Part shown: one piece after another, positions 35,748 to 36,880 of the stretch
Position numbering within the stretch: position 1 is the first letter of the stretch
Layout: each line of letters starts with the position of its first letter
Assembly: GCA_949295995.1 (NCBI GenBank)
Contig: CASFNK010000048.1
Coordinates: forward strand, 1 to 39,218
DNA: 39,218 bases
Direction: 5' to 3'
Source: an uncultured Pseudomonadota bacterium
Lineage (GTDB): Bacteria; Pseudomonadota; Alphaproteobacteria; RF32; CAG-239
Made by a program: the position numbers and the translations under genes
The notes under the pieces: model-generated
Databases searched by the model: none
Told to the model about the DNA's origin: nothing
What the model saw: only the letters and a program-made list of their open reading frames with translations

Positions 35748-35838
35748 ACCTCACCTCACGGAAAATTTTTACTTCTCTCTTTATAAGGATAAAGTGCTTA
35801 TTTTGCAATAGCTTATTTTGAACTTTCATTAAAACTAG

Positions 35839-35957
35839 ATGAAAAGACCAAAAAAATCATATGAACACGCTCAGAGGCTTACGCCTTCGACAAAGATGGC
35901 AAGCTCATCAATAAGCTGACCACCACTCAGACCAAGAAAATCTTTGAGGCAGAGTAA
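35839..35957 (+). pseudogene. Possible frameshifted remnant of a small gene
   Basis: A frame from ATG at 35839 reads MKRPKKSYEHA and then loses sense. A second frame (35865-35957, no start) reads on with AYAFDKDGKLINKLTTTQ and ends at TAA. Joined by a one-step frame change they would give one protein of about 39 residues. Codons such as CTG, ACC and AAG are richer in GC than in neighbouring genes. A 10-bp stem (35945-35954 with 35960-35969) surrounds the stop codon but has no T tract. This may be coincidence. Confidence 0.25.
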
Positions 35958-36084
35958 ATCTCTGCCTCACAAGCAAAACCCCTCCCGCTTTCCAAAACCA
36001 GAGGTGTTGTTCTATACCCAAAGTAAATTCTCAATAAAAAATAATATTTATTGCATTTCAAAATTTTATTTGATAATTTTTTTT

Positions 36085-36310
36085 GCGTACCCCTAAAAGG
36101 TGCAGAGCCTTGAACAGCTCTTATTTCATACGGTAAAGATGAAACCGTTAGGCTTTTTAAGATAAAGGCCACATCACCCTGACTTTTGGGTCGGGGAGCT
36201 TGTGGTGTATGTTCAAAAGCCATACTATGGTTTTAAAGACCATAAGGGTCATTTTATGAAATATGATTGTTCAACTCCCTGACCACCTTTACTTGGTGGT
36301 CTTTATTTTT
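36085..36310 (+). ncRNA. Candidate structured leader RNA ending in a terminator
   Basis: Complementary arms suggest one compact fold: a closing ACCCCT/AGGGT (about 36089 and 36245) and an inner TTGAAC/GTTCAA (about 36110 and 36211). A possible H-type pseudoknot has TTTCAT/ATGAAA (36124, 36139) and ACGG/CCGT (36130, 36145). A hairpin CCACA/TGTGG contains CCCTGAC/GTCGGGG (36169-36205), and a GACC/GGTC hairpin spans 36238-36250. A GATAAT lies about 10 bp upstream and an intrinsic terminator follows. It could be a riboswitch-like attenuator for the next gene or an independent small RNA. I do not recognise the class. Confidence 0.4.
36281..36310 (+). terminator. Terminator directly upstream of the methyltransferase start
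   Basis: GACCACC (36281-36287) pairs with GGTGGTC (36295-36301), followed by TTTATTTTT. Only about 15 nt separate it from the start codon, so it could act as an attenuator. Confidence 0.75.
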
Positions 36311-36325
36311 TATGGAGTTACAACA

Positions 36326-36880
36326 ATGTTATATTACAATTACTTTCTTCTCTTTGTATTATTGATTTACAACATCTACTTATTTTACAGTATAATTTCC
36401 TCCCAAAAAGGCAAATATCCGCCATTTGTTCCTGCCCCATATAACACAAGAAAAATAATCATAAAACAATTATCGCCACTTCTAAAAGGAAGTCAAAAAA
36501 GCCTACAAATTGTTGACCCAGGTTGTGGTATTGGCTCCTTATTAATACCACTGGCTCGAGCCTATCCTCAACACAAATTTATCGGAATCGAATGGGATAA
36601 ATTACTATATAAGATATGCTTATTTCGCAGCCGTAACTTACAAAACATAACCTATTTTAATCAAGATATGCTAGCCTATGATTACCACGACACAGATATT
36701 ATCGTCTGTTTCTTAGTCCCTAAAATCATACCGGACCTACAAAAAAGACTTTTAGAAACAGGGAAAAAAGGCACCTTTATTTTTTCAATAGATTGTTCTT
36801 TTCCCCAATTGACCGAAATAGCTTGTTTTGACAGCCATTTATTCTGGCAAAGTTTCAAAGTTCATCAATACCAACTATAA
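36326..36880 (+). CDS. Membrane-anchored class I SAM methyltransferase, FAM173/ATPSc-KMT-like
   Basis: A 184-residue protein with one N-terminal membrane helix (about 3-25), then PPFVPAP (32-38), the SAM motif DPGCGIG (64-70), acidic Glu89 at the end of strand 2 and Asp114. This order (helix, P-VP motif, Rossmann core) resembles the FAM173/ATPSCKMT lysine methyltransferases. The usual D/YLxxP-type motif appears as CFLVPKIIPDL. The substrate is unknown. The start at 36326 has GGAG 8 nt upstream. An upstream ATG (36263) would run through the terminator. It lies antiparallel between glyA and nrdR. Confidence 0.7.
   Translation: MLYYNYFLLFVLLIYNIYLFYSIISSQKGKYPPFVPAPYNTRKIIIKQLSPLLKGSQKSLQIVDPGCGIGSLLIPLARAYPQHKFIGIEWDKLLYKICLFRSRNLQNITYFNQDMLAYDYHDTDIIVCFLVPKIIPDLQKRLLETGKKGTFIFSIDCSFPQLTEIACFDSHLFWQSFKVHQYQL

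Follow-up and report, generated by a model that had tools for sequence, protein, structure and literature searches.

Ahead of a methyltransferase gene in an uncultured, gut-type alphaproteobacterium lies a structured RNA leader (positions 36085 to 36311, forward strand) that carries an intrinsic terminator at its 3′ end and stops 14 nt before the start codon. On balance, we think that this element works as a transcription attenuator in the 5′ leader of the gene, switching between a folded core and the terminator. Comparative sequence analysis shows conservation, a common structure, pairs that are private to each copy, an overlap between core helix P1 and the terminator, a position in front of genes, and a relationship to sRNA-Xcc1 (Rfam RF02221); the direction of the switch, its default state, and any action in trans are what we infer. 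The best reading of the sequences is that an RNA of the C4/sRNA-Xcc1 type has turned into a transcription attenuator, and with such a leader the choice between the folded core and the stop signal would most likely decide whether surface and regulatory genes are expressed.

Layout of the leader at the methyltransferase locus

The stretch of DNA analyzed here (the window, 39,218 nt) is contig C48 of a 1.6-Mb draft genome. It carries a permuted tmRNA of the alphaproteobacterial type, and the named sequences that best match the RNA motif are metagenome-assembled genomes of uncultured Alphaproteobacteria, two of them from goat abomasum. An earlier reading of these letters without database searches (the sequence-only reading) had proposed a compact fold upstream of the methyltransferase gene, and the region from 36085 to 36312 indeed folds with a predicted energy of −80.6 kcal/mol (z = −5.96), with none of 200 shuffled sequences folding equally well. 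The GATAAT element that it placed in front of the fold is present (36072 to 36077, forward strand) and may act as a −10 element, but we regard the promoter candidate as weak because it is missing from the results of a promoter scan and the possible −35 element, TTGCAT (36051 to 36056), is merely 15 nt away. Where the window has the GATAAT element, the copies in a related genome, G039, have TTGACTTTT ... TATGATATA.

All features of the leader lie on the forward strand. It begins with a 5′ hairpin (GUACC/GGUGC, 36087 to 36103, −4.3 kcal/mol) that is kept in the alignment of relatives, followed by hairpin H1 (AGAGC/GCUCU, 36104 to 36121), whose stem pairs covary (A-U to G-C) and whose loop holds element a (UUGAACAG, 36110 to 36117). 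Element b (UAUUUCAUA, 36122 to 36130) comes next, and then a small hairpin of the predicted fold (CGGU/ACCG, 36131 to 36149), the place of which is taken in beta- and gammaproteobacterial relatives by a terminator-like hairpin with a U run. An anti-P1 strand (36169 to 36183), composed of CCACA (36169 to 36173) and CCCUGAC (36177 to 36183), has as its partners UGUGG (36201 to 36205) and the 5′ strand of P1, in a hairpin of −21.3 kcal/mol.

The 3′ core opens with the P1 5′ strand (GGUCGGGGAG, 36189 to 36198), assigned by alignment and covariation. It continues with P2 (36199 to 36246; strands 36199 to 36206 and 36239 to 36246, double changes in eight of eight pairs), which has an internal loop (GUAUGUUCA/AAAG) and contains hairpin P2a (36217 to 36223/36227 to 36233), and with the P3 hairpin (36247 to 36268), whose loop carries element b′ (36255 to 36263); covariation marks both P2a and P3. 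Element a′ (UUGUUCAA, 36267 to 36274) then leads to the P1 3′ strand (CUCCCUGACC, 36275 to 36284), the last four bases of which double as the start of the terminator stem. The intrinsic terminator (36281 to 36311) pairs GACCACC (36281 to 36287) with GGUGGUC (36295 to 36301) ahead of a U-tract (36302 to 36311). It is followed by a Shine-Dalgarno sequence, GGAG (36314 to 36317), and the ATG at 36326; terminator, GGAG, and ATG come in the order given by the earlier reading. The putatively regulated gene (36326 to 36880) encodes a class I methyltransferase domain (Pfam Methyltransf_25/31), with a hydrophobic N terminus in which a membrane segment is predicted.

Copies, private helices, and downstream genes

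A DNA-level search found matches in 15 of 37 relatives, several per genome. With R1, a covariance model built on the 3′ core of the leader, we detected the leader in 45 of the 49 genomes of the family, usually at 1 to 17 copies per genome, with six copies in the genome of the window, at least 110 in G039, and at least 71 in another relative, G050 (up to 150 candidates were scored). At least 37 of 385 genomes in a class-wide sample carry it according to R1, with eight candidates per genome scored. A Blast search with a GC-rich alphaproteobacterial copy returned 254 plasmid records, mostly from Agrobacterium and Rhizobium, of which 209 have a conjugative typing, and two fecal phage records in INPHARED match an alphaproteobacterial copy; an exact-pattern scan of IMG/VR gave no match.

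The RNAalifold consensus is a three-way junction of P1 (GGUCGGGGAG:CUCUCCGACC), P2 with hairpin P2a, and P3. In an alignment of 104 copies, double changes are seen at 28 of 34 pairs, double-change cells number 574 (147 ± 24 after shuffling), and 95.7% of cells are paired, compared with 82% after shuffling and 28 to 56% when partners are slid by 1 to 3 columns; the 104-copy alignment was fitted to the model and is hence biased toward it, and an independent RNAalifold alignment gave the same helices. Upstream of this core, the order is H1 with a in its loop and then b. The partner of a is a′, which lies right behind P3, and that of b is b′, held in the loop of P3; the letters of these pairings vary from copy to copy. 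Both pairings occur in the correct order and spacing in 100 of the 104 copies when each is matched with its own partner, compared with 20% for swapped partners. In G039, all 75 b′ elements compared are distinct, and at least nine bases pair in 91% of own combinations versus 15% of swapped ones. Clear a/b pairs are found in five of the six copies in the genome of the window, the copy on contig C58 being degenerate. As duplexes, a:a′ and b:b′ have energies of about −6.6 and −6.0 kcal/mol.

Covariation, which the sequence-only reading had asked of homologous leaders, is thus present, and the compensatory changes in the core and in both private helices indicate that selection acts on the RNA. A local H-type pseudoknot at 36124 to 36148, part of that reading, gives way to a long-range contact, as UAUUUCAUA at 36122 to 36130 pairs with the P3 loop at 36255 to 36263 and covaries with it in nearly all copies. 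In one tandem copy of G050 (L074, 1501 to 1624, compared with L070), a/b and a′/b′ belong to different alleles, suggesting either recombination or an assembly chimera.

The nearest downstream open reading frame is on the same strand in 95 of the 104 copies and on the opposite strand in 5, whereas upstream neighbors are close to random (59 on the same strand, 40 on the opposite one), and downstream start codons cluster ~50 nt past P1. The 95 downstream proteins fall into 37 unrelated clusters and include pilins, adhesins, glycosyltransferases, lipoproteins, and HTH regulators; their Pfam domains include the methyltransferase of the window, family 2 glycosyltransferases, BspA-like LRR, HTH_3, and PD-(D/E)XK-type domains. 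Plasmid copies precede TraM or DUF2285-like proteins. In G039, prepilin-like genes stand downstream of 72 of 75 copies. At the loci of this genome (part of L056 to L083 and L136 to L195), nearly all leaders examined precede distinct prepilin-like genes with GRSMIEMLGVLAIIGVLSVGG N termini, scattered genome-wide, an unusually large pilin repertoire with individual leaders. The leader is a candidate regulator of pilins and surface proteins in uncultured Alphaproteobacteria of the gut, where these families are very large.

A regulator specific to the methyltransferase was considered and rejected, a clear copy of the RNA being directly upstream at only 3 of 30 homologous loci (the window, G046, and G050). 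G004, a genome of the same genus, has the methyltransferase at 88% identity and flanks with 91 to 95% DNA-level identity but lacks ~300 nt that include the whole leader. The leader is thus not essential before the methyltransferase in G004, since it is absent there in front of the same gene, and these comparisons indicate that it is a module gained and lost between genomes. The antisense open reading frame at 35927 to 36223, suspected earlier of being an artefact, probably is one, as the leader that it overlaps is missing at this locus of G004. Between nrdR and the leader (35835 to 36000), the window has ~390 bp fewer than G004; the extra stretch in G004 is coding-like, and a mere remnant is left in the window.

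A proposed choice between P1 and the terminator

Downstream of P1, 81 of the 104 copies have a hairpin that ends in a U-rich tail, and in 68 of these 81 its left arm shares exactly 4 nt with the P1 3′ strand. A complement of at least 6 bp to the P1 5′ strand, corresponding to anti-P1, is found in 97 of the 104. The conserved alternative is one in which the P1 5′ strand (36189 to 36198) pairs either with CCCUGAC (36177 to 36183) or with CUCCCUGACC (36275 to 36284), the latter overlapping the terminator stem. Because four bases are common to P1 and the terminator stem and because an upstream strand can capture P1, P1 looks like an antiterminator, and the predicted structures place a terminator and a conserved upstream pairing that would be mutually exclusive ahead of the start codon. 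The cis attenuator put forward by the sequence-only reading thus fits well with the gene orientation and the terminator counts, but the 5-bp switch that it proposed, between GTGGT and ACCAC, is not a conserved pairing; the conserved choice involves the P1 5′ strand.

Energy calculations for the window copy agree with such competition. The terminator has −11.6 kcal/mol as a whole; with the core folded without anti-P1, P1 forms and 3 bp of the terminator (−1.8 kcal/mol) are left, and with anti-P1 included, P1 is lost and the full 7 bp form. The state without P1 is lower in 91 of 93 alphaproteobacterial copies, by a mean of 16 kcal/mol, in a nested energy model that ignores pseudoknots and gives the P1 state no credit for a:a′ and b:b′, so the predicted default state is soft, and the pseudoknots in cis could instead favor the ON state. 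Termination cannot be the mechanism everywhere, since plasmid and GC-rich alphaproteobacterial copies have no terminator and many G039 copies have weak U-tracts. Copies on plasmids (L107 to L112) and L101, L102, L104, and L105, all without a terminator, have a common hairpin, GCGGGGGCGNACCGC, between the core and the start codon. A copy-specific switch in which the Shine-Dalgarno region pairs with the 3′ strand of P1 was considered; such pairing was found for 35% of own and 28% of swapped combinations. In two copies of the genome of the window (contigs C26 and C32; L054 and L055), the letters of the P1 5′ strand recur in the Shine-Dalgarno region, GGAUGUUC, which could base-pair with the a′/P1 3′ strand (GAACAUCC); this hints at translational control and is not significant across the set.

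In the mechanism that we propose, anti-P1 would capture the P1 5′ strand during transcription, and the a-b segment would pair with b′-a′. The left arm of the terminator would then be free, the terminator would form, and the methyltransferase gene would not be transcribed (default OFF). If the 3′ core instead folded as the P1/P2/P3 junction, the sRNA-Xcc1 fold, the terminator arm would lose four bases to P1, allowing read-through (ON). The trigger might be a protein, a metabolite, RNA processing, or a terminated leader that pairs with its siblings in trans through a and b. The letters of a and b are most likely private because these elements share the colinear antisense-target layout of phage C4 RNA and of the leader's phage relatives, so that each leader would recognize only itself.

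It seems unlikely that the terminated leader is itself the product, a small RNA of ~225 nt acting in trans, with the downstream gene expressed by occasional read-through only. The terminator does precede the gene, the founder of RF02221, an 88-nt RNA, was observed by Northern blotting (PMC2996969), and the title of Chen 2011, as cited in PMC12444791, calls sRNA-Xcc1 trans-acting. The private letters would also suit self-recognition in trans. A precedent for a terminated leader of this kind is IsrK of the Salmonella prophage Gifsy-1: this leader sRNA has a terminator, its read-through form is the mRNA, and it has roles both in cis and in trans on that mRNA (PMC4825925). A trans-acting RNA, however, would need neither a same-strand gene at its 3′ side in 95 of 100 copies nor a 4-nt overlap between P1 and the terminator, and because most a/b pairs are private, its plausible targets would mostly be the same leader, which is control of the cis type again.

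We rate as quite improbable a ligand riboswitch whose aptamer is built from the conserved internal loop (GUAUGUYCA/UAAAG) together with the three-way junction and in which the a/b helices are purely structural pseudoknots. Relatives of the leader control antirepressors, SymE, and conjugation antiactivators, as is typical of self-recognition systems; an aptamer leaves unexplained why a and b are repeated at the ribosome-binding site of beta- and gammaproteobacterial copies; and the strand that does the switching is located 5′ to the core. In favor of a riboswitch are the strictly conserved P1 and internal loop, the pseudoknots, the terminator/antiterminator order, and the large number of targets, which are unrelated to each other and include pilins and adhesins, a regulon type known for second-messenger riboswitches. 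Presence or absence at one locus between near relatives, the high copy number, the plasmid and phage copies, and the upstream TTGACTTTT...TATGATATA of G039 would fit a mobile or repeat-like element, spread by recombination or a mobile element and found before genes because it bears a promoter. That such an element has no regulatory role is very improbable given the compensatory changes in the core and in both private helices, and a non-exhaustive look at the alignments made showed no common ends or target duplication.

Within the attenuator reading, it is conceivable, although we would stop short of calling it probable, that a phage-type self-recognizing switch with the sRNA-Xcc1/C4 layout has been domesticated in gut Alphaproteobacteria as an attenuator with more than 100 copies per genome and private a/b codes. 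If so, more than 100 pilin and surface genes could be controlled individually without a dedicated protein regulator for each, a possible basis of surface variation.

Distant kinship with sRNA-Xcc1, and a comparison with other known systems

Catalogs list sRNA-Xcc1 as an sRNA of Xanthomonas that acts in trans and may contribute to virulence. The core of the window copy (36189 to 36292, forward strand) aligns to all 87 positions (1 to 87) of the RF02221 model with the same P1-P2-P3 junction at 18.1 bits, which does not reach the gathering cutoff of 53. For sister copies from the genome of the window, the scores are 36.8 and 34.8 bits, plasmid copies reach up to 35.1, and in the reverse search R1 recovered two RF02221 sites (E = 1.7e-8 and 8e-5). 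We treat the leader as a distant relative of RF02221 and not as a member because the full-length match is far below the cutoff. Searches of the window and of alphaproteobacterial relatives against Rfam, at gathering and permissive thresholds, found no known class that reaches its cutoff at the element. The novelty claimed by the sequence-only reading therefore holds at the level of Rfam cutoffs but not for the core, a divergent relative of an RNA that itself sits upstream of genes.

At an E value of 0.01, a search of 398 Pseudomonadota genomes detected RF02221 in 62, with 39 over the cutoff. Pfam searches of ten proteins downstream of RF02221 copies gave Bro-N (four, one of them subthreshold), KilA-N, P22_AR_N, and SymE, and the copy in phage Rac-SA53 has an annotated ant gene downstream. 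The SymE contexts agree with a recent paper in which symE genes in integron cassettes of Xanthomonas have sRNA-Xcc1 in front of them (PMC12444791). By eye, a and b are repeated (a2/b2) around the Shine-Dalgarno sequence or start codon in ~12 of 14 RF02221 copies, and b′ matches its own downstream region over a mean of 8.2 bases, compared with 6.6 when swapped (14 copies, one of which, L129, is from Alphaproteobacteria). Alphaproteobacterial copies showed no excess of downstream complement (a2/b2), own and swapped being equal. The RF02221 loci L113 to L131 and L134, which apart from L129 are beta- and gammaproteobacterial or phage copies, have a1-b1 upstream, often a terminator-like hairpin next, and a2-b2 at the ribosome-binding site of genes for Bro-N, KilA-N, P22_AR_N, or SymE proteins; this C4-like self-targeting layout was absent from the papers found. 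Our search of openly readable papers found none joining sRNA-Xcc1 with antirepressors.

The comparison suggests instead that sRNA-Xcc1 is the core of an element that exerts self-targeting control on its own strand, stands in front of antirepressor, toxin, conjugation, and surface genes across Pseudomonadota, and has a large uncatalogued alphaproteobacterial branch; as such, its mechanism would be directly testable in E. coli. The leader shares with sRNA-Xcc1 the three-way junction, the a-b...b′-a′ pairing seen in beta- and gammaproteobacterial members, the position before genes, and the occurrence on plasmids and phages. It differs in that the window copy lacks a2/b2 at the ribosome-binding site and has an intrinsic terminator overlapping P1, and in that its targets are envelope and regulatory genes, where those of sRNA-Xcc1 are antirepressors or SymE; sRNA-Xcc1, moreover, is annotated as an 88-nt sRNA and not as a leader.

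Among other systems, attenuators and riboswitches likewise have an antiterminator, here P1, and a terminator that exclude each other ahead of the start codon, but no known aptamer class matches the leader, its competing strand is upstream of the core, and its helices are private. IsrK (RF01394) is similar as a leader with a terminator ahead of a read-through gene, but it has no Rfam match in the window and activates translation without transcription attenuation. The C4 antisense RNA (RF01695; c4-2, RF02944) is encoded on the same strand as its target and within one transcript with it, is located upstream of antirepressor genes as are the RF02221 relatives, and owes its specificity to two short variable complementary elements, as do a:a′ and b:b′ of the leader, with the partner upstream. 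In phages P1 and P7, C4 contacts its target through loops a′ and b′, the latter of which covers part of the ribosome-binding site, and specificity changes with a difference of 4 nt (PMC5320573). The fold of C4 differs from that of the leader, however, and alphaproteobacterial copies lack a2/b2 and a C4-type target at the ribosome-binding site; the C4 covariance models gave no match in the region of the window, even at an E value of 10, or at the core of the relatives. The leader thus appears to be a new, attenuator-type variant, found in Alphaproteobacteria, of a self-pairing RNA like C4 and sRNA-Xcc1, with a mechanism that we infer from sequence.
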